This document shows, in pieces, positions 1,585 to 40,757 of a stretch of 42,108 nucleotides of DNA. Location of the stretch: contig CAINDV010001020.1 in NCBI GenBank assembly GCA_903847485.1, forward strand, positions 1-42,108, given 5' to 3'. The stretch is from an uncultured Verrucomicrobiota bacterium (GTDB taxonomy: Bacteria > Verrucomicrobiota > Verrucomicrobiia > Limisphaerales > JAJXZI01). The notes beneath the pieces were generated by a model. The model did not search any database, was not told where the DNA came from, and saw only the letters and a program-made list of their open reading frames with translations. Positions within the stretch are counted from its first letter, which is position 1; the number at the start of each line of letters is the position of its first letter. Both the position numbers and the translations under genes were made by a program.

Positions 1585-3513
1585 TCAATTCTCCGCCGAG
1601 TGCAATCCGCCGGTGCCGGCGCGGAAGGCGATGTTCATGCGGTCAGGTTCGCCGGGGATGGCGGTAGCACAATTCCAAAGACAGGCACCGCAATGGACGC
1701 ATTTCTCGCGGTCGAAGGCCGGCACGGGGCCTTCGCCGGGAGTTATGGCTTGTCCGCTACAAGCCTCGATGCAAACCTTGGTGCCGCACTGTTTGCATAA
1801 CTCCGGGTGGAGAAAGACGACATGGTCCGCATAGCCCGGCGGTGCCTGGACCTTACCGCCCATGAGCAAGGCGTCTTGATGGGAGACGAGTAACTGTCCA
1901 TCATAGGGAATCGCCGGCCAGCCGACCTTGTCCATCAGGGCACCGTGGAGTGAGACGCTCTTGGCGCGACATTCCTCGCGGAGGCGGGCGATCTCGTCGG
2001 GTGATATGCGGTCGCGGTAGTAGTCTTCGAGACTCGGAATGCGCTGCCAAGGCGGCACTGGCTCACTGCTTAGGTTGAGACGGCCGTCTGTCAGGCCCGC
2101 CAGTGCCATGCCGATCATGCCGCGGACGACGCCGTGTTGGAAGCCATCGCGTGATTTCTCGGCGGCAATGGCTTCGGCTTCGACCCAACTGGCGCGACGG
2201 AGTTGCACGTAGGTTTCGTCGAGATTTTGCTTGGTGAAAGGTTTCTTCGCTTTGAGCAATTCCAGGACGGCTTGGGCCAATTGAGCGCCGGTGGTCCAGG
2301 CTTCGTCCACGCCAGAGCCGGTGAGGACGTTGGTGCTGCCGCTACATTCGCCGATGCGGGCGTAACCGTCGCCGGTAAGATGCGGTTCGCCGCGGCGGCC
2401 GGATTCGCCGAGGGTCTTGGCACCCCAGGAGCGGAGCTTGCCGCCCTGGAGATATTGCCAGAGGTAGGGATGAAGCATCCAGTGTTGGAGATAGCGATAG
2501 GCGGTGCGCGCGGGGTTGTCGAACCACGACGGCACAAAGATGCCGAGCGACGCGACACGATCGGGGTGGACGTAGAGGAAGCCGAATATCTCTGGTTCGG
2601 GATAGCCAAAGGTGTGCAGCACTGTGCCCGGCTTGAGAGTCGTGTCTGCGGGCAAGTCCACCACGAACTTCATGCCGATGGCCCAATCGCGGGTGTGATG
2701 GCCTTCGGGCATACCGAAGTGGGCGTCCAATTGCTGGCCGATGGCACCGACGGGGCCATCCCCGATAACCGTGAGGGCAGCGCGGATGTCCATGCCGGGC
2801 GTGAAACCGTCGCCGGGGCGGCCTTGTTTGTCCACGCCTTGATCGAGCAGGCGGACGCCGACGACCTTTCGGCCATTAGTGGCACAGGCATCTTGCCTGT
2901 GCGTTGTTTCTGTAACACACAGGCAAGATGCCTGTGCCACTTCCTCGATCAACACTTCCGACACCGGCGTGCCGGGCCAGATTTGCACGGTGCCGGTGCC
3001 TTGCACTTGCGCGCCGACCCATTGCATGAACTGCCCCATAGAAAACACCAGTCCGCCGGTCTTATGGAGGAAACCCGGGGTCCAAGGTAACTCGACCGCA
3101 CTTTGCGAGCAGGGCAGCGCCCATTGCAGCAGCTTGACCATTTCATCCGCCGCGCCGAGGGCCATCGAACGGCGGCTGGCACCCACCGGGTCGAGCAGAT
3201 AGAGCACCTTCTCCTCACCGACGGGCGCGGACATGGGAATGCCGGCGTGGTCAAGGTCGGGGAAAGTGGCGCGCAAGCCGCGGGCTTTGGTGACGACGCC
3301 GGAGACGCCGAAGCCGATGTCATCGGCGCGCTCGTAACAGAGCACTTGCGGTGGCAGGCCGGGCATGACGGCGCTTTCGACGGCGGGGGTGCCGTCGGGA
3401 TTGACGAGTTGCTGGGACAGCGTGGCGAGGAAGCCTGCCGTCGCCGGCCCGAAGCCGACGCAGACGATGTCCACATCCATGCGCTGACGTTCTACGATGG
3501 GTTCGGTGCTCAT
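1585..3513 (-). CDS. Electron-transfer-flavoprotein:ubiquinone oxidoreductase-like FAD protein with C-terminal 4Fe-4S domain
   Basis: N-terminal FAD-binding region DIVCVGFGPATAGFLATLS; GSGVDEAWTTGAQLA; C-terminal CKQCGTKVCIEACSGQAI...KCVHCGACLWNC and tail GTGGLHSAEN. Confidence 0.8.
   Translation of the reverse strand: MSTEPIVERQRMDVDIVCVGFGPATAGFLATLSQQLVNPDGTPAVESAVMPGLPPQVLCYERADDIGFGVSGVVTKARGLRATFPDLDHAGIPMSAPVGEEKVLYLLDPVGASRRSMALGAADEMVKLLQWALPCSQSAVELPWTPGFLHKTGGLVFSMGQFMQWVGAQVQGTGTVQIWPGTPVSEVLIEEVAQASCLCVTETTHRQDACATNGRKVVGVRLLDQGVDKQGRPGDGFTPGMDIRAALTVIGDGPVGAIGQQLDAHFGMPEGHHTRDWAIGMKFVVDLPADTTLKPGTVLHTFGYPEPEIFGFLYVHPDRVASLGIFVPSWFDNPARTAYRYLQHWMLHPYLWQYLQGGKLRSWGAKTLGESGRRGEPHLTGDGYARIGECSGSTNVLTGSGVDEAWTTGAQLAQAVLELLKAKKPFTKQNLDETYVQLRRASWVEAEAIAAEKSRDGFQHGVVRGMIGMALAGLTDGRLNLSSEPVPPWQRIPSLEDYYRDRISPDEIARLREECRAKSVSLHGALMDKVGWPAIPYDGQLLVSHQDALLMGGKVQAPPGYADHVVFLHPELCKQCGTKVCIEACSGQAITPGEGPVPAFDREKCVHCGACLWNCATAIPGEPDRMNIAFRAGTGGLHSAEN
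2878..2941. repeat. Intragenic perfect palindrome inserted in frame in the ETF-QO-like gene
   Basis: AGTGGCACAGGCATCTTGCCTGTG / CACAGGCAAGATGCCTGTGCCACT, 24-bp perfect arms, 16-bp loop; each arm also contains CACAGGCA-TCT-TGCCTGTG. Encodes AQASCLCVTETTHRQDACAT within the ORF. Confidence 0.95.
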
Positions 3514-18919: not shown

Positions 18920-19056
18920 AGAGCATGTTTGAAAAGTCCCCCCAGTGGTAGGGCGAGGCTTCTGCCGAGCCTCAACGACAGCGGCAGTGCGACGTTACCG
19001 AACGGCTCGGCAGGAGCCTCGCCCTACACCGCTGGGCGACTTTTCAAACACACTCT
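18920..19056. mobile_element. MITE-like palindromic element, copy 1
   Basis: AGAGCATGTTTGAAAAGTC ... GACTTTTCAAACACACTCT terminal inverted repeats, internal GGCGAGGCTTCTGCCGAGCC / GGCTCGGCAGGAGCCTCGCC. Confidence 0.85.
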
Positions 19057-19148
19057 CAGAACTCCTGCCCCGTGGCCTTGGTGGGAAGAGGCACGTGGAA
19101 TGGGCGTGCCCCCCCCCCACCCCTTCCCTCCACTGCCGTTGACTTGAA

Positions 19149-23026: not shown

Positions 23027-23255
23027 TCCGCCCCCTTCGCGCTTATTGGCCGGGACGCCTACGCCGGGGGCCTCCACGGCCCCCCCAGTGCCGGGCCGGC
23101 GTGGAAGGGTTCGCGGCGCATGGGAAAGATTGTCTTGGCTGGCGTTTTCAACGATTATTGGAACTCTTCGGCGGCGGTGCCATAACAAATCTTGCAGGTT
23201 CGCGGAAATCGCCTACAAACCCCTTGCGGCACAAGCGCAAGCGAGAGCCGACCCC

Positions 23256-23579
23256 GCCGAAAGGCATTGGTGGCAACTAGGTGGTGGTGGTGCCGTTCCA
23301 TTTCGCAATGCGGGCATCGGACGCCTGCCGCAAGGCATTGGTGACCTGGTGATCTCGTTCCCAAACTTTTTGAGTTTTTGAGTTTCGGCTTCGCTCCGCC
23401 GAAAGGCATTGGCGACAACACCGGAGTCAAGCGCACATTCGTCTGGCCATAATAGTTCCCGCCCCACCGCCGAAAGGCATTGGTGACTTGATGGAACATA
23501 AAGGGGTCAGTTCTTGGTATTGATAAGTGAGGCGGAGCGTAGCGGGCACCGGCCCGCCGCCGAAAGGCATTGGTGACAC
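23256..23579 (-). repeat. CRISPR-like interspersed direct-repeat array: five copies of about 21 bp (GTCACCAATGCCTTTCGGCGG on minus strand)
   Basis: GCCGAAAGGCATTGGTGAC-type cores start at 23256, 23327, 23398, 23469 and 23559; intervals 71, 71, 71, 90 bp with unlike intervening sequence. Confidence 0.75.
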
Positions 23580-26309: not shown

Positions 26310-26817
26310 AATGACGAAGCCCGAAATCCGAAGCTGGCCCTTACAGAGCCGAGTTGCTGGCAGAAAAATGGCGGGTAAAAATGGCGAGATTCTGGCCCAA
26401 AACCAGTGCGGTAGGGCGACGCTTTAGCGGAGCCGCAACCAGAGCGGAGCGCCGACATTCTTGTCGGCGAGACCTTGGACGGTACAGGTTCAGAACTCCT
26501 GACCCGTGGCTTTGGTTGGAAGGGGCGGCTGGAATTAGTGTGGAACTCCCCACCCCCTTCCCTCTCCCCATCGGATGGGAAGAGGGTGCCCGCCAGGGCG
26601 GGTAAGGGGCTTTCGGCGGGCTCACTTGCTTGCCACGGCTCAGGGTTTCTGGGACTGGCCGACAAGAATGTCGGCGCTCCGTCTGGGCAGAAGCTCCGCC
26701 GGAGCGTCGCCCTACCGGCAAGGGGTTTGGGTAAGAGCCTATCCATTTTTACCCGCCATTTTTCTGCCAGTAACTCGGCTCTGTCAGGGCCAGCTTCGGA
26801 TTTCGGGCTTCGTCATT
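26310..26817. repeat. Nested large inverted repeat of about 0.5 kb
   Basis: 75-bp arms AATGACGAAGCCCGAAATCCGAAGCTGGCCC...GGCGGGTAAAAATGG and its reverse complement (2 mismatches); inner arms with GTAGGGCGACGC...GCGCCGACATTCTTGTCGGC and reverse complement. Confidence 0.9.
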
Positions 26818-28329: not shown

Positions 28330-30912
28330 TCACGAGCGTGGAGCAGCCGTCCCGCTGGCCTCATTCGTCGGTGAAGCCGGCTCCTTGGCGTCGCTCCGGG
28401 GAATCACTTGGACGGGGATCGGCTTATCAGCCGTGAGACGCATGTCGCGCTGGGGGAAGGGGATGGCGATGCCGTTTTCGGCAAACGCGCCGGCAATCAT
28501 GTGGCGCAGGTCGCTGGCGATCTGCGCGGCGTTGTGCTTCACGACATCCACCCAGTAACGTAACTCGAACGTCAGGGCGCTGTCGCCGAACTCCATGAAG
28601 AGCATTTGCGGCTTCGGCTCCTTATTCACCAAGCCGTGACGTTCGGCCACCTCGCCGAGCAGTTGCACCACGCGGCGCGTATCGGAGCCATAAGCTACGC
28701 CGACAGTGACCGTGAACCGCACGGTGCGGTTAGAGTAGGTCCAGTTAGTCAGGTTGTTCTCCAGTAAGGCGCTGTTGGGTATTAGTGTCTCGGTGCCATC
28801 CCAGCGCTGGATCACGCTCGAACGGAGGCCAATCCCAGTGACTGTGCCGCGCTGGCCAACGACATCCAACACGTCCCCGACCCGGAACGGGCGCTCGAAT
28901 AGGATGATAATGCCACTGATGAAGTTCTTGAGTAGGTTCTGGGTGCCGAACCCCACGCCGATGGCCAGGGCGCCGCCGGCAAAGGCGAAGACGGTCAGCG
29001 GAATCTTAACCGAGACTAGGCTGAACGCGATCAAGCAGAGTAGCAGCACCACCCGCACCCAGCGGCGGATCAGGCTCGCTTGGTTCGGCTCAATCTTAAG
29101 CCGCTTTACCGCCAGCGGCTCGACCAGGCGCGCGACCAGTCCAGTAAGCCAATAGCCCACGACGAGAATGAGCACGGCCAGGGTTATCTTGCCCACGGTG
29201 ACGGGGCGTTTGCCGTAGATGGACTGGCCGTCCACGATGATCGTGTCCTCGGCCACGAACAGTTCAAAACGCCACAGCTTGGAGACGAAGGTGGAAGTCT
29301 CGGCGAATAGATCCTTCACCCGCCCGGTGAAGGGCAGCGCCTGACGGTCAAAGTCGAGTGCCTCCCGCCAGCGCGAGACTACTTGCTCACGCTTCTCCAG
29401 GTTTTGCAGCGCGCGCTGGTACAAAGCCTCCCGCTGCTGGTAGGTCTCCAACCGTTCCCGCGTCAAGGCCGGGTCCGCCGCGGCGTCGCCCTGGTTTTGC
29501 AGGCGATTCTGCTGTTCGGTGACCTGGCTGGCCGCGAGCTCAATCTGCTGCCGGTAGTACGGTTTGGCCGCCTGGATAAGTCCGCTCACGCGGGTTAGTC
29601 GCTGGTAGGCCCGTTGTAACTCGGCGAGATCGCGGCTGCCGAACACGGCCAGCCGCATCTGCCACATCTGGAGCTCGCCGCCCAGACTCTCGAAGAGTTG
29701 TCGTAACACGGTCAACCGCTGGATACTGGTCTGCGCTTGGAGACCCCGCACCTCCACCACTTCCTGGAGGTGAAGCAGGACAGCCGCATTAGTAGTCCCG
29801 GCGAACTGCTCTTGCAGGGCGTGGCGCAGGTGTTCCCGGGCCTCAGTCAAGGCCCGCTGGCACGCCTCGATATTGGTGTCCGCTGCCTGAACCTCTTGGT
29901 CAAGTCGGCGTTGTTCTCTGGCTAAGTTGTCCAGGACTTTGTCGAGGTGCGCCTGAGTAAAGGTAACCTGCTGGGCGGCCACAGCCAGTTGTCGCTTGGT
30001 GGCGGTCAAGCGCTGACTAACCTCAACCATCTCTTCGGTGGCGATCTGGCGCTTCGTTTCTAAGGACGCGAGCGAGGCAGCCGCCGTGCGCTGCCGCGCT
30101 TGCTCCAGTTCCCGCTGCCAGGCCAGACGTGCGACGAGGGTGGGATCTTTGGTCCCTTCCGATTGCTCGGCGAAGCGGCGGAGCTTTTCGTCGGACTCCT
30201 TCAGGGCCGCTTGCGCGTCGGCCAGGAACTCTTCGATCACGGTGCGCGTGATCTCGGCGGCTCTGACTTTGGCATTGAGGGATTGGAGGGCGTTCCGTAA
30301 GTCGTCCACTAATAAGACCGAATACGGCGGCGGCTCCGCGAAACCGGTCCAGGAGTTGACGGTGCTCGCAAGATCCTGCTGCCGCTGCCGGGCGGCCTCC
30401 AACGCGGCCAGGTCCTCCAGGTGAAGCTGGCAGGTGCGGACTAATCGTTGCAGCACGGAACGGTAATCTATGGCTTCCGGCACCGTGGCACCGGCCGGGA
30501 GGTTGCTGGAAGTGTTCTGGGCCGCCTGGGCACGGCTCAAGTCAGCCTGGGCTTCCGCGAGTTTGGCCCGCAGGCTGGCGGCTAGTTCACCCACTCCTAA
30601 GCTGACGCCGTTGGTGGCCAGGCGCGGCGTTACGTCGCCCGCCAGCAATCCGCCAGCACTAAGCCGGGCCGATTGCGCCACTGCGTTGCTGGCCAAAACC
30701 AGACAGCAGAGGAGGACGATGAAAAACCCGAAATCCGAAATCCGAAATCCGAAATCCGAAATGGCTTCCTGCCGTTGGTCGAAAGCTGCTCTTTCTGGAA
30801 GGCGACTTAGACAAAGTGATTCGGATTTCGGATTTCGGATTTCCTTCGGATTTCGGATTTCGGATTTCGGATTTTCCCCCTCTCCCCCGCCATTGTAAAT
30901 TCCGGTTCTCAT
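28330..30912 (-). CDS. MscS-family mechanosensitive channel with long coiled-coil periplasmic region
   Basis: FAFAGGALAIGVGFGTQNLLKNFISGIIILFERPFRVGDVLDVVGQRGTVTGIGLRSSVIQRWDGTETLIPNSALLENNLTNWT (MscS core). Confidence 0.9.
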   Translation of the reverse strand: MRTGIYNGGGEGENPKSEIRNPKEIRNPKSESLCLSRLPERAAFDQRQEAISDFGFRISDFGFFIVLLCCLVLASNAVAQSARLSAGGLLAGDVTPRLATNGVSLGVGELAASLRAKLAEAQADLSRAQAAQNTSSNLPAGATVPEAIDYRSVLQRLVRTCQLHLEDLAALEAARQRQQDLASTVNSWTGFAEPPPYSVLLVDDLRNALQSLNAKVRAAEITRTVIEEFLADAQAALKESDEKLRRFAEQSEGTKDPTLVARLAWQRELEQARQRTAAASLASLETKRQIATEEMVEVSQRLTATKRQLAVAAQQVTFTQAHLDKVLDNLAREQRRLDQEVQAADTNIEACQRALTEAREHLRHALQEQFAGTTNAAVLLHLQEVVEVRGLQAQTSIQRLTVLRQLFESLGGELQMWQMRLAVFGSRDLAELQRAYQRLTRVSGLIQAAKPYYRQQIELAASQVTEQQNRLQNQGDAAADPALTRERLETYQQREALYQRALQNLEKREQVVSRWREALDFDRQALPFTGRVKDLFAETSTFVSKLWRFELFVAEDTIIVDGQSIYGKRPVTVGKITLAVLILVVGYWLTGLVARLVEPLAVKRLKIEPNQASLIRRWVRVVLLLCLIAFSLVSVKIPLTVFAFAGGALAIGVGFGTQNLLKNFISGIIILFERPFRVGDVLDVVGQRGTVTGIGLRSSVIQRWDGTETLIPNSALLENNLTNWTYSNRTVRFTVTVGVAYGSDTRRVVQLLGEVAERHGLVNKEPKPQMLFMEFGDSALTFELRYWVDVVKHNAAQIASDLRHMIAGAFAENGIAIPFPQRDMRLTADKPIPVQVIPRSDAKEPASPTNEASGTAAPRS
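30726..30874. repeat. Inverted arrays of 7-bp repeats CCGAAAT / ATTTCGG
   Basis: Five CCGAAAT units at 30727-30761; ATTTCGG units in two short runs at about 30829-30874; spacer about 65 bp. Confidence 0.95.
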
Positions 30913-30922
30913 TCGCCCGGCC

Positions 30923-31103
30923 TCACTTCATGCCCTGCCTGACATCAATCAACAGTTGGTCCGCATAGTCTATCCGGATGAGGCCCAGGCGGGGGAACTC
31001 CAGATCGAGAATGACATAGATAGTAAGCGACATGATGAAGGCGAAGCCGAGGATGTGGAACCAACTGAACTGCGGAGCGTCCAGAAAGCAAATTCCTATC
31101 AAT
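30923..31103 (-). pseudogene. C-terminal fragment of a DUF4239/bestrophin-like membrane protein
   Basis: Minus reading IGICFLDAPQFSWFHILGFAFIMSLTIYVILDLEFPRLGLIRIDYADQLLIDVRQGMK* with no N-terminal part. Confidence 0.65.
31066..31103. repeat. 38-bp direct repeat, left copy, bounding the insert at 31.1-32.55 kb
   Basis: TGAACTGCGGAGCGTCCAGAAAGCAAATTCCTATCAAT; 36/38 identical to 32513..32550. Confidence 0.95.
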
Positions 31104-31127: not shown

Positions 31128-32171
31128 TCATATAAATTCGATTTCTTTACCCTGCCAGTAACTGGCGATACGTCCCATTTGGACGTAGGTTTCCATCCCC
31201 CCGCAGTGCACCCCGCGTGCCTCTATAAACTGCACGAGCGAACTGTCAGGCATACAAGTTCCTGAAGAATCAGATACAACCATTAAGGCTATCGGTGGTC
31301 TTCCGGCGGAAATGTCAGCATCAGCCATTGCCCGTAATGCCCCAAGAAGCGTAGCCTGATGTTCTATGCTTTCAGAGTATCTCGCTCCTAATACTCTTGG
31401 TCCTATATCCTCATAAAATGTTGGACTCCTTCCATTCACCTTCACATGTTCGACAAGAATAAGATATAAGATTTTCAGCCATTCGTTGGTGTCCTTATCG
31501 AAAGCATTCAAGCACACTTTAACGGTGGTTGAAGTCTCGGGATTTGAATCGGTTGGGTTGCGATTCTTATCAGAAGGTATTTCAAGATCACGAAGAGTTT
31601 CAATCTCGGATATTGAATATGATTTTCCACACCGGCAAATGGCGGCGTTTGATTTAAAATCAAAGTCATCAGATCTTATTCCGAGAGCATATTTTGATAA
31701 AAACGCTCTGTCCTCTGGAGACTGATAAGGTTGAATAGCAGAACGTGTATTCTTAAGATACAGTGTGCAATATGTCCTGCCACATTTGCATCTGAAGACG
31801 ACGTCCCTGCAATGCCTACAACGCACATACTCGCCAAGTGAAAAAGTCGCGGTAACATCCCATTCATGTCCATCCTTTTTGATCCCTCCGCAGAGACGAC
31901 ATATGCAGCCATTCCATTTGTGCCCTTCCTGACGAGTCTTGCCGCATTTCAAACATTTGCAACCTTCCCAAGAGTGAACAGCGGCCTGCATTTTGTCGCA
32001 TTTGGCGCACTTCTCGCAATCCTTGGAATAATCGTGGTTCTCGTCACGCGTCTTATTGCATATCCCACATTTGCAACCAGCCCACTCGTGGTCTTGATCG
32101 CGGTTCTTTCCACATACTGAACATTTGCAATCCGTCCATTTGTGGAATCCTAATTTGCATAACAGGCTCAT
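31128..32171 (-). CDS. Protein with N-terminal tandem Cys/His (zinc-ribbon-like) repeats and uncharacterised C-terminal domain
   Basis: MSLLCKLGFHKWTDCKCSVCGKNRDQDHEWAGCKCGICNKTRDENHDYSKDCEKCAKCDKMQAAVHSWEGCKCLKCGKTRQEGHKWNGCICRLCGGIKKDGHEW: five units of H-x-[WY]-x2-3-C-x-C-x2-C. Visibly AT-richer than flanks. Confidence 0.8.
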   Translation of the reverse strand: MSLLCKLGFHKWTDCKCSVCGKNRDQDHEWAGCKCGICNKTRDENHDYSKDCEKCAKCDKMQAAVHSWEGCKCLKCGKTRQEGHKWNGCICRLCGGIKKDGHEWDVTATFSLGEYVRCRHCRDVVFRCKCGRTYCTLYLKNTRSAIQPYQSPEDRAFLSKYALGIRSDDFDFKSNAAICRCGKSYSISEIETLRDLEIPSDKNRNPTDSNPETSTTVKVCLNAFDKDTNEWLKILYLILVEHVKVNGRSPTFYEDIGPRVLGARYSESIEHQATLLGALRAMADADISAGRPPIALMVVSDSSGTCMPDSSLVQFIEARGVHCGGMETYVQMGRIASYWQGKEIEFI

Positions 32172-32192: not shown

Positions 32193-32550
32193 TTAATTCT
32201 CCACCGAGTGTATTCCACCTGTGCTGGCGCGGTTGGCGATGTTCATGTGTTCGGGATTGTTCGGATTAGCCTGCGAACAATTCATCAGGCACGCGCCACA
32301 GCGGGAAGTTGATTTAGACATTGCCGGATTTGGGTTTGTTTGCTGCTTTTTCGTATTCACGCAAAGTTTTTTCCTATTCCGCGATGCGTTCCTCGATTTG
32401 CCTGCGGTCGGCGAGGTGTTCGTCCATTTCCATTTTCGGAAACATGGACTCCGCGTAATACGGCAGATGGCCGGAGGTTTTATACATTTTGTCTTGGGCT
32501 GGTTTCTGGCGTTGAACTGAGGAGCATCCAGAAAGCAAATTCCTATCAAT
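32193..32550 (-). pseudogene. Mosaic of gene fragments: possible ThrRS-like piece plus a third copy of the ETF-QO ferredoxin tail
   Basis: CGACLMNCSQANPNNPEHMNIANRASTGGIHSVEN* versus CGACLWNCATAIPGEPDRMNIAFRAGTGGLHSAEN*; another frame reads KMYKTSGHLPYYAESMFPKMEMDE. Confidence 0.7.
32513..32550. repeat. 38-bp direct repeat, right copy
   Basis: TGAACTGAGGAGCATCCAGAAAGCAAATTCCTATCAAT; overlaps the PPK2 stop codon. Confidence 0.95.
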
Positions 32551-33475
32551 GCTCTTGCTGGGTAGCCTCCGGCTCGGTCGGCTTACCCTGCTTCTCCTTG
32601 GCGGCTAAGAGTTGCTGCCACTTTTTCTTCCCGATCTTCTTCTCTTCTTCCTTCTCCGCGTGATGGTATTGGCGCGTGATGGCCTTGAGGTCCACGGTCG
32701 GTTTCGGGAACTTCATGTCCATCGCTTGCATCGTTTCCGCGACAATCTTCGCCACCGCGAGATTGCGGAACCACTTATTGTCCGCGGGGATGATGAACCA
32801 CGGCGCGTGCTTAGTGCTAGTCTGGCGGAGAAGGTCTTCGTAAGCCTCGGTGTAATCATCCCAGAACTCCCGCTCCGTATAGTCAGTCTCGCTGATCTTC
32901 CAATGACGGGCCGGGTCGTCCAGCCGTTGCTTGAAACGCGCGAGCTGTTCCTCCGGACTGATGTGGAGGAAGAACTTGAGGATGCGCGTGCCATTCGCCA
33001 CCAACCCTTGCTCAAAGTCATTGATCATCGCGAAACGCTTTCCCCAGACCTTGTCGGGAACCAACTTATGCACGCGAGTTACCAGCACGTCTTCGTAATG
33101 CGAGCGGTTGAAGATCACAACCTCGCCCCGCTTTGGCACCTGTTCTTCTATCCGCCAGAGAAAGTCATGCGCGGCCTCTTCTTTCGACGGTGCCTTGAAG
33201 CCGTGGACCCGCGCGCCCTGCGGATTCATCGCGCCAAGCACATGGTTAATAGTGCCATCCTTGCCGGCGGCGTCGAGCGCCTGCAGGCAGATGAGCAATG
33301 ACTGCTTGCCCTCGGCATAGAGCAGATACTGCAAGGCGCGTATTTCCCGGTCGAGTTTCTCGACTTCCTTAGCCGCCGATTTTTTGCGGTCGTGGTCCCC
33401 AGTGAAGTTGGGGTCAATCTTCTTCAAGCGGACCCGGCTGCCGGGCTTTACTTTCAATAGTTTAGTGTATTTCAT
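32546..33475 (-). CDS. ppk2: Polyphosphate kinase 2 family protein
   Basis: LLICLQALDAAGKDGTINHVLGAMNPQGARVHGFKAPSKEEAAHDFLWRIEEQVPKRGEVVIFNRSHYEDVLVTRVH (PPK2 Walker A and lid). Confidence 0.92.
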   Translation of the reverse strand: MKYTKLLKVKPGSRVRLKKIDPNFTGDHDRKKSAAKEVEKLDREIRALQYLLYAEGKQSLLICLQALDAAGKDGTINHVLGAMNPQGARVHGFKAPSKEEAAHDFLWRIEEQVPKRGEVVIFNRSHYEDVLVTRVHKLVPDKVWGKRFAMINDFEQGLVANGTRILKFFLHISPEEQLARFKQRLDDPARHWKISETDYTEREFWDDYTEAYEDLLRQTSTKHAPWFIIPADNKWFRNLAVAKIVAETMQAMDMKFPKPTVDLKAITRQYHHAEKEEEKKIGKKKWQQLLAAKEKQGKPTEPEATQQEH

Positions 33476-33651: not shown

Positions 33652-36600
33652 TTAGTGAGCCGGCGTGGCGGGCGGGTTAGCTTCAGCGGGCTTGGCCCCC
33701 TCGTGTTTGCCGCCGCCCAGTTTCTCCACCACATAGAACGTGACCGGGATAAGGAAGATCGCTATGGCGCTGGCCGCCAACATACCGCCAATGACGGTGA
33801 AACCCATGACTTGCCGCGAGAGAGCGCCGGCCCCGCTCGCCTTGGCCAGCGGCACGCAACCCAGGATGAAGGCGAAGCTGGTCATCAAGATCGGACGCAA
33901 CCGCAGCCGGGCACCCTCCAGCGTGGCGTCCAACAGCGGTTTGCCTTGCTCATAACTCATCTTACAAAACTCAACGATGAGAATGGCGTTCTTAGCCGCC
34001 AGGCCGATGAGCATGACTAAGCCGATCTGGGCGTAGATGTTGTTCTCGTAGTGGCCGACCATGAGGGCGGCGAACGCGCCGAACACGGCGATAGGCGTGC
34101 CCAGCAGCACGCTGAACGGCAGGCTCCAGCTCTCGTATTGCGCCGCCAGGATCAGGAACACACACAGTAGCGAGAAGCCGAAGATAACCATCGGGGAGAT
34201 GCCTTCCTGCGCCTTCTTCTCCTGGTAACTCATGCCCATGTAGTCGTAACCCATTCCGTCCGGCATGGTCTGGGCGAAGACCTCTTCCAGCGCCTTCATG
34301 GCCTGCGCCGAGCTGTATCCGGGCCGAGCCGAAGCGTTGATCTGGGCGGACTCGTGGAGGTTGTAGCGCAGGGTAAACTCCGGGCCGATGGTGTTAGTGA
34401 CGCTGGTGACGGCGGCCAGCGGCACCATGTTACTGGCGTTGTTGAGGACATAGAACTGGCCCAGGTTCTGGGCGTCGTTGCGGTAATCGCCCTCGGCCTG
34501 CACATACACCTGCCACTGGCGACCGAAGCGGTTGAAGTAGTTCACAAACGCGCCGCCCATGAAGCATTGCATCGTCTGGTAGACGTCCTGAAGCCGCACG
34601 CCTTGCTGCAAGACTTGGTCGCGGTCCACGTCCACATACACCTGCGGCACCGACAGGAGCGCGGTGGTGAACACGCCGGCTAACTCGGGCCGCTTCTGCG
34701 CCGCCGCGATGAACTTAGTTAGATTAGGCACCAGAAACTCAACGCCCTTGCCCGAACGGTCTTCGAGGATGAAAGTCACGCCACCGGACGCGCCGACGCC
34801 GGGAATGGCCGGCGGCGGAAAGGCGAAACCCACCGCGCCGGGCAGCTTGCCGAACTCCCGGTTCAGATGCTCCTTGATGGCGATGTATTGTTCCTCGGGC
34901 TTCTTGCGCTCGTCCCACTTATCCAGTGTGATGAAGAAGAAGGCGCTGTAAGTGTTGTTGACGCCGCTTAACATGCTGAAACCAATGACTGAGGTGTAAT
35001 ACTTGATGCCCGGCGTCTGCTTGAGAATCTCCTCAGCCTGCCTTACCACCTCATCGGTGCGTTGGAGGGAGGCGGCATTGGGCAACTGCACGCCGGCAAA
35101 GACGTAGCCTTGGTCCTCATCCGGCAGGAAGCTCGCCGGCACTCTCTTTCCGAAGAACCCCGCCAGCACGGTCAACCCGACGAGCAGCAGCAGCGCGATG
35201 GCGCTCTTGTGGATCAGCACGCGACACAGGCCGACGTAACCGTCGGTGGCTTTGCCGAAGAGTTGGTTGAAGCCGTCATAGAACTTCTGGAGCAGCCCGG
35301 TGCCCTTGGCCTTGGGCCGGAGGAGCAGGGCGCACAGCGCAGGCGACAGGGTAAGGGCGTTGAACGCGGAGATCACGACGGACACCGCGATGGTCACCAC
35401 GAACTGTTGATAGAGTCGCCCAGTGATGCCGGGAATGAAGGCCGTGGGGACAAACACGGCCGCCAGAATGATAGCGATAGCCATGACCGGGCCGGAGACT
35501 TCCTGCATGGCCTTAAGCGTCGCGTCCTTGGGTGACAAGCCTCTCTCGATGTGATGCTCGACTGCTTCCACCACCACGATGGCGTCGTCCACCACTAACC
35601 CGATGGCGAGCACTAAGCCGAAGAGTGACAGCGTATTGATGGAGAAGCCGAACAGGGGGAATAGCGCGAAGGTGCCGATAAGTGACACCGGCACAGCGAG
35701 CAGCGGGATGAGTGTCGCCCGCCAGCCTTGGAGGAAGATGAAGACCACGATGATAACTAGCGCCAGCGCCTCCACGAGTGTCTTCTGGATTTCCTTCATG
35801 CCCTCCGTCACCGCCAGCGTGGTGTCCAGCGAGACTACATAGTCCATGTCCGGCGGGAAGCTCGCCTTAAGTTTCGCCATGAGCGCCTTGGCGTCGGCCG
35901 CAGCCTGGACGGCGTTGGAATCGGGAAGCTGGTAAAGCGCGACGAGTGCCGAAGACTTGCCGTTGAGCCGCGCCTTCATGCTGTAATTCTGCGCGCCCAG
36001 TTCGATGCGGGCCACGTCCTTCACCCGCACGATGGCCCCGCCCGGCGCGGCGCGCAGCACGATTTCGCCGAACTGTTCCGCCGTTTCCAGGCGGCCTTGC
36101 GCCCGCACCGCATAAGTGAATTCCTGCCCGCTGGGCACCGGCTCGCCACCTATCTGGCCGGCGGGGTTCACGTTGTTCTGGGCCTGGAGGGCGTTGATGA
36201 TTTCCGGCACCGTGATGCCCATTTGCGCCAACCTATCGGGCCGGACCCAGAGGCGGATGGCGTATTGCCCGGCACCGAAGACTTGGACGCTGGCGATGCC
36301 CGGCACGCGGGTCATCTGGTCGTTAATGTTGATGTAGGAATAGTTGGCTAGAAAGATACCGTCGTAGGTGTTGCTCGGCGAATAGAGCGCGAACATGATA
36401 AGTGGCGCGGCGGTGGACTTCTGGACGGTGACGCCTTGGTCAGTCACGGCGGAGGGTAGTTGCGAGTTAGCCTGGCTCTGCCGCATCTGCGCGAGGATCT
36501 GATCGGTGTTCGCGTCGGTCTTGACGTTGAAATCCACCACCAGCTTCATCGAGCCATTGTTGGCGTTCAGGGAATACATGTATTCCATGTTATCCACGCC

Positions 36601-36810
36601 GGACATCTGCTGCTCAATAGGCGTGGCCACCGACTGGTCCACGGTGACGGCGTCGGCACCGGGATAGCTGGCCTGCACCTGGATCTGCGGGTCGGCGATG
36701 TTAGGGAACTGTGCGATGGGCAGGCTGGACATCGCGACCAGGCCGATGATGACCATCAGGATGGCGATGACCATCGCGACGATGGGGCGGTTGATGAAGA
36801 ATTTGGCCAT
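33652..36810 (-). CDS. RND (HAE1/AcrB-type) efflux permease
   Basis: MAKFFINRPIVAMVIAILMVIIGLVAMSSLPIAQFPNIADPQIQVQASYPGADAVTVDQSVATPIEQQMSGVDNMEYM; 1052 aa. Confidence 0.97.
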   Translation of the reverse strand: MAKFFINRPIVAMVIAILMVIIGLVAMSSLPIAQFPNIADPQIQVQASYPGADAVTVDQSVATPIEQQMSGVDNMEYMYSLNANNGSMKLVVDFNVKTDANTDQILAQMRQSQANSQLPSAVTDQGVTVQKSTAAPLIMFALYSPSNTYDGIFLANYSYININDQMTRVPGIASVQVFGAGQYAIRLWVRPDRLAQMGITVPEIINALQAQNNVNPAGQIGGEPVPSGQEFTYAVRAQGRLETAEQFGEIVLRAAPGGAIVRVKDVARIELGAQNYSMKARLNGKSSALVALYQLPDSNAVQAAADAKALMAKLKASFPPDMDYVVSLDTTLAVTEGMKEIQKTLVEALALVIIVVFIFLQGWRATLIPLLAVPVSLIGTFALFPLFGFSINTLSLFGLVLAIGLVVDDAIVVVEAVEHHIERGLSPKDATLKAMQEVSGPVMAIAIILAAVFVPTAFIPGITGRLYQQFVVTIAVSVVISAFNALTLSPALCALLLRPKAKGTGLLQKFYDGFNQLFGKATDGYVGLCRVLIHKSAIALLLLVGLTVLAGFFGKRVPASFLPDEDQGYVFAGVQLPNAASLQRTDEVVRQAEEILKQTPGIKYYTSVIGFSMLSGVNNTYSAFFFITLDKWDERKKPEEQYIAIKEHLNREFGKLPGAVGFAFPPPAIPGVGASGGVTFILEDRSGKGVEFLVPNLTKFIAAAQKRPELAGVFTTALLSVPQVYVDVDRDQVLQQGVRLQDVYQTMQCFMGGAFVNYFNRFGRQWQVYVQAEGDYRNDAQNLGQFYVLNNASNMVPLAAVTSVTNTIGPEFTLRYNLHESAQINASARPGYSSAQAMKALEEVFAQTMPDGMGYDYMGMSYQEKKAQEGISPMVIFGFSLLCVFLILAAQYESWSLPFSVLLGTPIAVFGAFAALMVGHYENNIYAQIGLVMLIGLAAKNAILIVEFCKMSYEQGKPLLDATLEGARLRLRPILMTSFAFILGCVPLAKASGAGALSRQVMGFTVIGGMLAASAIAIFLIPVTFYVVEKLGGGKHEGAKPAEANPPATPAH

Positions 36811-36825
36811 AGGTCAGAGGGGTTG

Positions 36826-36954
36826 AGTAAATCCGAAACCCGAAATCCGAAATCCGAAAGCAGCCCGAAGCCCGAAGTCCGAAGCGGTGCCGGGTGTCAG
36901 GGCGGGTTGGGTTTCGTACTTCGGATTTCGAATTTCGAATTTCGGATTTGTACC
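36826..36954. repeat. CCGAAAT/ATTTCGG-type palindrome between the YhcG-like and RND genes
   Basis: aatccgaaacccgaaatccgaaatccgaaagc...gtacttcggatttcgaatttcgaatttcggattt. Confidence 0.9.
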
Positions 36955-36956
36955 GG

Positions 36957-38039
36957 TCATGGCTTTGTTCCCTTCGCCTTCGTGGCCGGGGCCGCCAGTT
37001 GGTAGAACTCGTGCAGCTTCTGTTGGAGCAGCTTCTTGTCCGGTAGGACGGCTTGGTATTCAGCGACGAGCGCCGGAGAAACCGCCCGGCTCAGGGCGTA
37101 TTCGACGACTTCGTTGTCCTTAGTGGCGCAGAGCAACGCGCCGATGGACGGGCGCTCGTGGGGCTTGCGGACATCGCGGTCGAGGGCTTCGAGATAGAAC
37201 TCCATCTTACCCAAGTGCTCCGGCTCGAACTCCCCGACCTTTAAGTCAAAAGCCACCAGCGACTGGAGCGCCCGGTGGTAGAAAACGAGGTCAACGCGAA
37301 AGTCCCGGCCCCCAACTTGCAGGAGGTATTGCTCGCCGACGAAACAGAAATCGCGACCGAGTTCGACGAGGAACTTCTTAAGGTTGGCCACTAACCCCGC
37401 GTGTAAGTCGGCTTCGGAATGGACTTCCGGTAGGTTGAGAAAATCGAGGAGGTAAGTGTCTTTGAAGACGGTTTCGGCGACGGGGTGCAATTCTCTCACC
37501 ACTGGTGAGAGTTTTGGCGGAGATAGGATGGTGCGCTCGAACAGGGCGCCGTTAAGCTGGCGTTCGAGTTCGCGCTTACCCCATTTTTCTCGAATGACTA
37601 GGCGAAGGTAAAACTCCCGTTCTTCTGCGCGTTTGCTCTTGGAAAGGATTAACAAGTTATGCGTCCAAGACAATTGTCGCACCAGTGGTGCGACTTTCTT
37701 GTCGGCCCGGTAAGTTTCGTAGAACTGCCGCATCCGAAACAGACTGGCGCGGGTGAAGCCCTTGATGTCCGGATGATGTCGAGCGATGAAACCAGCCAAC
37801 CGGTCCACCACCCCTTCACCCCAGAAGGCGACTGACAGCTTGCGGCTGATGATCTCCCCGACGCGCCAATACAGGTCTATCAACTCCGTATTAACCGCCT
37901 GCAACGCCCTGGCCCGCGCCGACTGGATCAAACCCACCACTTCCCCGAACGCCTGCGCCTCGCGGCCCGCCGCCGGCGGCCGACTGGCTTTCGCCGGTGC
38001 CTTGACGGGGAGCCGCTTAGTTGACGGTTTCCTCTGCAC
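36957..38039 (-). CDS. yhcG: YhcG/DUF1016-family PD-(D/E)xK nuclease-like protein
   Basis: DLYWRVGEIISRKLS...GFTRASLFRMRQFYETY...LSWTHNLLILSKSK...REKWGKRELERQLNGALFERT...VFKDTYLLDFLNL...DLVFYHRALQSLVAFDLKVGEFEPEHLGKMEFYLEALD. Confidence 0.9.
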   Translation of the reverse strand: MQRKPSTKRLPVKAPAKASRPPAAGREAQAFGEVVGLIQSARARALQAVNTELIDLYWRVGEIISRKLSVAFWGEGVVDRLAGFIARHHPDIKGFTRASLFRMRQFYETYRADKKVAPLVRQLSWTHNLLILSKSKRAEEREFYLRLVIREKWGKRELERQLNGALFERTILSPPKLSPVVRELHPVAETVFKDTYLLDFLNLPEVHSEADLHAGLVANLKKFLVELGRDFCFVGEQYLLQVGGRDFRVDLVFYHRALQSLVAFDLKVGEFEPEHLGKMEFYLEALDRDVRKPHERPSIGALLCATKDNEVVEYALSRAVSPALVAEYQAVLPDKKLLQQKLHEFYQLAAPATKAKGTKP

Positions 38040-38084
38040 GTCGTTGTTAAAGGCTGGCCTGACTTGTTACTTGGCGGAAGTTCC

Positions 38085-39299
38085 TTACTTACCCTTCGCC
38101 TTCGCCGCCGGGGCCACGGCCTTCTCGCCCGCCTTCTCCACAAACGGCACCGGGTTCACCACCGCGCCGTCGCGCACCTTCTGGATACCTTCCGCCACCA
38201 CGCGGTCGCCGGCCTTCACACTGCCTTGGATGAGGCCTTGGATGACCCACTCCTGCCCGACAGGCTCGCCGACACTTACCGGCCGCATACTTACCTTGTT
38301 ATCAGTGCCCACGACCGCGACTAACGAGCGGCCTTGCACGTCCGTCACCGCCCGCTGCGGCACGAGGAGGGCATCCTTCTGGGTGTCGAGCAGCGCCCGG
38401 ACGCGGACGAACATACCCGGTACCAGCAGTTTATTGGAATTAGTGAACTCACCCACGACCGTGATGGTGCCGGTCTTCACATCCACCTGGTTGTTGGCGA
38501 ACCGCACGCGCCCCGGCTCGGAATAGACCGTGCCAGTCGCCAGGACCAGTTCCAGTTCCGGGCCTGCGTCGGCGCGCGCCGCCTTGCCTTCGGCCAAACG
38601 ACGCTCCAGCATTTTGGTCACCAACTGCTGGGACACCGAGAAATACACGCGGATCGGATCCATCTGCACCACGGTGGTCAACAGGCCGGTGCCGGGGCCG
38701 ACGAGATCGCCAACCTGGGCCTTGGCCAGGCCGGCGGACCCGGTCACCGGGGCGCGGATGGTGGTGAAGTTGAGATTCAACTCGGCCTCCTTCACCACCG
38801 CTTGGGCGCTGGCCACCTGGCCGTCCGCCGCCTTATCCGCCTGCACGGCGTCGTCCAGTTCCTGCTTGCTGATGGCTTGGGATGCGGCCAGCGGCGTGTA
38901 ACGTTCCACGTCGAGGGCGGTCTTCCCCTTCTGGGCTTGTGCCTCCATGAGTTGCGCCTTGGCCTTGGCCAAAGTAGCCGCAAACGTGGCCGGCTCGATT
39001 CGGAATAGCACCTGCCCGTTAGTCACATCGCTACCTTCCGAGTAGTCCCGACTAATTAGGTAACCACTCACCTGAGCGGAGATCGTGGCATTGACCTCGC
39101 CTTCCAGTGTGCCCACCGCGTCGCGATAAATCGGCACATCCCGCTGCGTCACGGCGACCACCGCGACGTCCGGTGCGGCCAGGGGTTGGGCGGCTTCCTT
39201 CTCCTTGCAACCGGGCAGCCAAACTAACCAAGCCAGCAGCCCAACCGGCGCTGCCATTTTCCGCATCAAATGTCGTGTCATAGCGTAATTACGTTCCAA
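38085..39299 (-). CDS. RND efflux membrane-fusion protein (AcrA/MexA type)
   Basis: LPGCKEKEAAQPLAAPDVAVVAVTQRDVPIYRDAVGTLEGEVNATISAQVSGYLISRDYSEGSDVTNGQVLFRIEPATFAATLAKAKAQL. Confidence 0.95.
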   Translation of the reverse strand: MERNYAMTRHLMRKMAAPVGLLAWLVWLPGCKEKEAAQPLAAPDVAVVAVTQRDVPIYRDAVGTLEGEVNATISAQVSGYLISRDYSEGSDVTNGQVLFRIEPATFAATLAKAKAQLMEAQAQKGKTALDVERYTPLAASQAISKQELDDAVQADKAADGQVASAQAVVKEAELNLNFTTIRAPVTGSAGLAKAQVGDLVGPGTGLLTTVVQMDPIRVYFSVSQQLVTKMLERRLAEGKAARADAGPELELVLATGTVYSEPGRVRFANNQVDVKTGTITVVGEFTNSNKLLVPGMFVRVRALLDTQKDALLVPQRAVTDVQGRSLVAVVGTDNKVSMRPVSVGEPVGQEWVIQGLIQGSVKAGDRVVAEGIQKVRDGAVVNPVPFVEKAGEKAVAPAAKAKGK

Positions 39300-40434: not shown

Positions 40435-40528
40435 AGGCTACCGAAGCTTGACGGCGGTTGCAAGGCGGAAAACCGATAAAATTCTTATTCCGCAGGGCGG
40501 CCTCAAGCTCGGTATGGCCCAGGCCCAG

Positions 40529-40757
40529 AACTCCTGAGCCGTGAGCACCAATTCCAACTGGCAAGGAAACGAGGTGAATCCAAGCACGCCGGGTCAGGGG
40601 ACCCGGCCTACAGCAAGGGCGCGGTTCTGTAGGTCCGATGAGGACCCCGGGCCTGTAGAGTCGCGCCTTTGCTTGTAGGCCGGGTCCCCTGACCCGGCGC
40701 GCTGGGACGCATCCCGTTTCCTCGCCGGTTGGAATTGGTGCTCACGGCTCAGGAGTT
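40529..40757. repeat. Long palindromic element of about 230 bp
   Basis: AACTCCTGAGCCGTGAGCACCAATTCCAAC...CGCCGGGTCAGGGGACCCGGCCTACAG with its inverted counterpart CTTGTAGGCCGGGTCCCCTGACCCGGCG...GTTGGAATTGGTGCTCACGGCTCAGGAGTT. Confidence 0.93.

Follow-up and report, generated by a model that had tools for sequence, protein, structure and literature searches.

A yhcG-type nuclease gene probably inserted into the 3' end of an efflux adaptor gene

The stretch of DNA considered here (the window, 42,108 nucleotides from an uncultured Verrucomicrobiota bacterium) contains an MFP-RND efflux operon that is split by a nuclease gene, with the minus-strand order MFP, yhcG, RND. This arrangement probably arose by insertion of yhcG into the last codons of MFP with a short target duplication, after which yhcG read into the old MFP end. 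The splitting of the operon by a YhcG-like nuclease gene had been proposed in an initial annotation made from the sequence alone, and gene order and Pfam matches confirm it; the end coordinate given there, 38120, takes in the MFP copy of the repeat described below and lies outside yhcG itself (36957-38039).

The locus and its direct repeat

The features of the locus are as follows.

38085-39299, minus strand: MFP, the RND periplasmic adaptor gene and target (HlyD_D23, 2.1e-9, Pfam; RND_mfp, 5.6e-70, NCBIfam); present end ...AVAPAAKAKGK*
38092-38115, minus strand: upstream repeat copy (24 nt), in the 3' end of MFP, GGCCCCGGCGGCGAAGGCGAAGGG
36994-38091, minus strand: putative insert of about 1.1 kb, bounded by the two repeat copies and without transposase or integrase
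36957-38039, minus strand: yhcG, 360 aa, GTG start; DUF1016_N (34-169) and YhcG_C PD-(D/E)XK nuclease (190-342); PADLOC phage-defence candidate PDC-S02
36970-36993, minus strand: downstream repeat copy (24 nt), in the 3' end of yhcG and in its reading frame, GGCCCCGGCCACGAAGGCGAAGGG
36949-36969, minus strand: putative displaced original MFP end (AACAAAGCCATGACCGGTACA), made up of the final codons (..TKP), the TGA stop and the beginning of the spacer; now terminates yhcG
36829-36949, no strand assigned: CCGAAAT inverted-repeat element, dispersed (19-mer 124 times in the genome), within the old MFP-RND spacer
36811-36828, minus strand: what is left, next to RND, of the presumed ancestral spacer, CTCAACCCCTCTGACCT (cf. 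CTGACCT of the orthologues)
33652-36810, minus strand: RND permease gene (AcrB type; ACR_tran, E=0, Pfam), formerly close 3' of MFP

The product of yhcG belongs to the YhcG/DUF1016 family: it has DUF1016_N followed by YhcG_C, at 137.5 and 184.5 bits (curated cut-offs 32.8 and 32.5; E-values 4.2e-40 and 1.5e-54). The catalytic residues of a PD-(D/E)XK nuclease, Asp and D-L-K, can be read in its sequence (FRVDLVFYHR...AFDLKVGEF), and close homologues have DLK or ELK at this motif; the protein may be an active nuclease. It also matches the PADLOC PDC-S02 models (best 2.2e-129). By gene calls and Pfam, the insert carries no methyltransferase; it consists of yhcG alone and is not a restriction-modification (R-M) system. 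Nor does the 1.1-kb insert have the transposase, integrase or terminal inverted repeats of an insertion sequence or integrase-borne element, the sole inverted-repeat-like feature at its ends being the self-complementary GGCCCCGGC within the repeat. Lying within the operon, yhcG is probably transcribed from the operon promoter, and nothing suggests that it plays a role in efflux. A search for RND or MFP genes beside other yhcG genes gave one distant RND-like match (L068, 24%), so the efflux setting is evidently particular to this genome.

The 3' ends of MFP and yhcG have in common GGCCCCGGC(GG/CA)CGAAGGCGAAGGG, identical at 22 of 24 positions. The pattern matches twice in the whole window and in none of 100 shuffles, and its 13-nt core is found four times in the 9-Mb genome, two of the occurrences being these copies. 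Direct repeats of like quality surrounded none of 141 control genes from sampled stretches of the same genome, 2 of 126 from relatives (both simple repeats) and 2 of 357 other genes in loci carrying yhcG. The gene thus sits between direct copies of target-gene DNA, as expected of insertion with long target duplication. The detectable duplication, however, extends over only 24 nt, below the order of 100 bp that is usual in such cases, and it is imperfect and rich in Ala and Lys codons, all of which counts against insertion. Also, with a MAG of 75.65% completeness and 5.08% contamination, an assembly artefact is possible.

The probable original end of MFP

A search of 320 genomes of the same order for MFP-RND orthologues turned up ten MFP orthologues (58-69% identity over MFP) in which RND follows at a short distance and yhcG is absent; they represent the empty site at a relatedness no closer than the order. 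Their MFP-to-RND spacer mostly measures about 30 nt, in many cases with CTGACCTATG at its end; the spacer ahead of RND in the window ends CTCTGACCTATG once the dispersed CCGAAAT hairpin is left out. (The closest orthologue, L148:1360-1490, likewise has a longer spacer, filled by a repetitive element, GAGCGTGGAGCGTGAAGCGTGG.) MFP ends close to ATKAKGTKP, the ending predicted for relatives with contiguous genes, were indeed found: ...APKAKASKE* in L148 (AAPAPKAKASKE), ...EAKP in L149 and, with TGACCGG at the stop, ...AETAKP* in L153 (AAPAAQAETAKP) and ...ATGAEDAKP in L152 (followed by TGACCGGTT). The MFP of L150 ends ...PEKKP*. In the window it is yhcG that ends ...APATKAKGTKP* followed by TGACCGGT (tail letters AAPATKAKGTKP; DNA beyond the repeat ...AAAGCCA TGA CCGGT), and MFP now ends AKGK*.

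The two ends were compared with those of the ten orthologues after alignment on the stop codon, using the part beyond the 24-nt repeat (the last 9 nt, the stop and 6 nt; 18 positions) and a background of 618 gene ends. The yhcG end has a mean identity of 9.4 of 18 to the orthologue MFP ends, and no background end scores as high (0/618; mean 6.27 +/- 0.94). The window's own MFP end scores 5.0, a value reached by 575 of the 618. When the best-matching orthologues are left out, at most 2/618 background ends reach the yhcG end, and none do when the background is limited to ends stopped by TGA (0/361) or to those that in addition have KP-like last residues (0/42). If the flanks are joined at the repeat and the 1122-bp repeat-to-repeat segment is removed, the result is a 406-residue MFP whose tail aligns gap-free to that of L148 (KAKGTKP / KAKASKE) and scores above the present tail against eight of the ten orthologues. 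From this likeness of ends and the gap-free reconstruction, it is most likely that yhcG carries the displaced original MFP tail. The earlier idea that yhcG bears a copied MFP C-terminus therefore needs amendment: the repeat is at both 3' ends, but the yhcG end is no copy of the present MFP C-terminus. Rather, it looks like the original, and AKGK* like the altered one.

L148 and the present MFP in the window both have TAAGGA at the stop, which leaves room for the present end being native. The likeness was rejected as an argument for a native end, as it is not significant (314 of 567 background ends are as similar).

Might the tail be a trait of YhcG itself? In a set of about a hundred homologues, conservation stops at LHEFY and the tails beyond it vary; many of those from Verrucomicrobiota and Planctomycetes carry Lys/Arg-rich ones, and two homologues (L069 and L175) have LAAPA, as in the window. 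KAKG is absent from every tail in this set. Since homologues have basic tails, a few with LAAPA, an Ala/Lys-like tail proves little alone, and part of the repeat may be native to YhcG, given the LAAPA held in common with L069 and L175. The tail had been seen as an apparent extra beyond LLQQKLHEFY, and YhcG proteins elsewhere with the same Ala/Lys tail were to tell against the insertion reading. They do so only loosely, their tails being basic, twice with LAAPA and never with KAKG. A mere family trait was rejected as the source of the tail, for none of the homologue tails is like that in the window.

According to the insertion model, yhcG, which encodes a PD-(D/E)XK nuclease in the PDC-S02 group, would have entered the last MFP codons as a one-gene cargo, perhaps in a single event, leaving a target duplication of at least 24 nt. 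With the insertion point inside the MFP reading frame, MFP would now end on a stop brought by the insert (AKGK*) and yhcG on the old MFP end, reading into it in frame and adopting the old codons, stop and spacer (...KAKGTKP*, TGACCGGT). The molecular route would most likely be the recombination behind the "insertion with long target duplication" of R-M genes. Insertion at a gene 3' end, with duplication of the tail and its in-frame fusion to the cargo, had been suggested at the outset, and the repeat, the empty sites and the first rank of the yhcG end among 618 support it, while the event as such and its mechanism are inferred.

Repeats at other yhcG loci and alternatives to insertion

In 143 distinct yhcG loci, the upstream and downstream flanks of genes were surveyed for direct repeats scoring at least 18. 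Such repeats flank yhcG in 11 of the loci, but only 2 of the 357 other genes taken from these loci as controls (p = 3.5e-5, one-sided Fisher test; a first version of the survey gave 4/77 and 0/288 controls). At loci other than that in the window, the repeats are 20-184 nt long. Several can be read as gene ends. The 3' end of hsdM is found before and after one yhcG in L097, and again before a second DUF1016 gene; in L037 it is repeated ahead of hsdS, and the repeat in L136 is a 5' part of hsdM. In L200, yhcG is followed by a repeat of the 3' end of a gene whose product is called heparinase-like on resemblance alone, and the repeat in L176 is the 5' end (start) of a squalene/phytoene synthase gene. 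In at least two loci the repeat supplies the yhcG stop codon: in L039, the repeat covers 47 nt from the hsdS stop into the 5' end of hsdR, and yhcG stops at the repeat's copy of this TGA; in L075, the repeated 5' end (start) of hsdS overlaps the yhcG stop. The notion that all the flanking repeats are target duplications was rejected, as an origin from a gene end can be read off only in the seven loci just named, and the repeats in L103, L217, L194 and L219 may be dispersed repeats. Even so, the finding of related nuclease genes with duplicated host-gene ends suggests that they move as single genes. Separately, a single type I R-M locus, L097:4800-6815, contains two DUF1016 genes that differ from each other, and the hsdM 3' end occurs three times around and between them.

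These observations bear on other accounts of the repeat. Perhaps yhcG arrived with its own Lys-rich tail and stop, and the 24-nt match reflects only two Ala/Lys-rich tails encoded by the same preferred codons. Lys/Arg-rich tails are native to YhcG homologues of the PVC group, and LAAPA in L069 and L175 would fit, but the lack of KAKG in any homologue tail would not; nor would the rarity of comparable repeats around sampled genes of the same genome (0/141) or the segment beyond the repeat, which, stop and spacer included, is closer to orthologue MFP ends than any of the 618 background ends, the 42 TGA-stopped, KP-like ones among them. We consider such a coincidence quite improbable. Alternatively, the tail of an incoming yhcG may already have resembled that of MFP, so that a crossover within the tract swapped the ends with no target duplication as such. 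The GGCCCCGGC part may have belonged to both partners from the start, as YhcG homologues have LAAPA and MFP orthologues APA, and the two copies disagree at 2 of 24 positions. The repeats in L200, L097, L037 and L039, however, are plainly host-gene ends with no counterpart in YhcG, and recombination through short homology is accordingly an unlikely source of the arrangement.

Insertion at the 3' end of a gene with direct repeats on either side is also the classical outcome of site-specific integration, and one could imagine a recombinase that integrated a cassette or island, with the 24-nt repeat as the attL/attR core. Yet the 1.1-kb insert encodes yhcG alone, with neither integrase nor terminal inverted repeats, and the repeats vary by locus, gene 5' ends included, with no common core among the identified yhcG insertion sites. 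A recombinase of this kind is very hard to credit.

If insertion with a short target duplication is accepted, one may go a step further and suppose that yhcG genes are minimal single-gene mobile elements, whose own nuclease helps to make the break and the target duplication, and that the mobile unit would end at or before its stop codon (as the window, L039 and L075 would indicate), capturing C-terminal residues and a stop from its landing site. We offer this tentatively, as a rather doubtful extension. The wider interest of the locus lies in the transposase-free movement of single genes of the defence type: a footprint recurring at one nuclease family, in which ends of both restriction and housekeeping genes are duplicated, makes self-promoted insertion of YhcG testable. 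The locus also shows how the site where a gene lands may provide it with another C-terminal tail and stop codon, and how an unrelated gene may end up in an operon.

Known insertions and other footprints in the window

Insertion with long, variable target duplications has been described for R-M genes of Helicobacter pylori and other bacteria (reviewed in PMC3874152; illustrated in PMC1643837; PMC3031569), going back to Nobusato et al. 2000 as those articles describe it. As there, direct copies of target DNA within a host gene enclose a gene unit that has no transposase, the cargo is of the defence type, and the empty site is seen by comparison with genomes that lack it. The present case differs in that the cargo consists of one nuclease gene instead of an R-M system, that the duplication is of 24 nt only, and that the cargo runs in frame into it and takes the stop codon of the target. 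Moreover, the R-M insertions were described mainly from close Helicobacter strains, whereas here the comparison is with orthologues about 60-70% identical.

The YhcG family (COG4804, PF06250) was predicted to be a PD-(D/E)XK nuclease by Kosinski et al. 2005 (PMC1189080), who noted one homologue in a type I R-M cluster of Methanosarcina and no other association. The protein in the window has the full DUF1016_N and YhcG_C architecture and the D-x-K nuclease motif, but that description has no conserved neighbourhood and no mobility, in contrast to the insertion footprints found here at several loci. No paper on such footprints for YhcG was found among open-licence articles. As for PDC-S02, the window protein matches its models, but its gene sits in an efflux operon and not beside defence genes, and a defence role is that of a candidate.

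Two further loci in the window have similar footprints. The parallel drawn earlier with higBA (799-1541) holds: it lies between 104-nt, 90% identical direct repeats (675-778 and 1621-1724) that represent the 3' end of an ETF-QO-like gene (1585-3513, minus strand), the distal copy with an in-frame stop. The third insertion-like footprint is a 38-nt direct repeat (95%; 31066-31103 and 32513-32550) that begins at the stop of a ppk2-like gene (32546-33475, minus strand) and flanks a zinc-ribbon-like ORF (31128-32171; 347 aa, no Pfam match).

Other repeated sequence was seen as well. At 32193-32300 (minus strand), the end of an ORF is similar to the C-terminus of ETF-QO (RCGACLMNCSQANPNNPEHMNIANRASTGGIHSVEN); the intact gene lies far off, and this is apparently a relic. 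Inverted-repeat elements of the CCGAAAT type are found at 36829-36949, 30717-30887 and elsewhere, some copies forming the start of the ORF at 28330-30912. A dispersed repeat, CAGAACTCCTGNCCCGTG, occurs at 19051-19130, 26485-26564 and 40520-40543 (up to 75 nt, 79% identical), and 23246-23577 holds five copies of a 29-nt repeat with GAAAGGCATTGGTGAC, mostly 71 nt apart.
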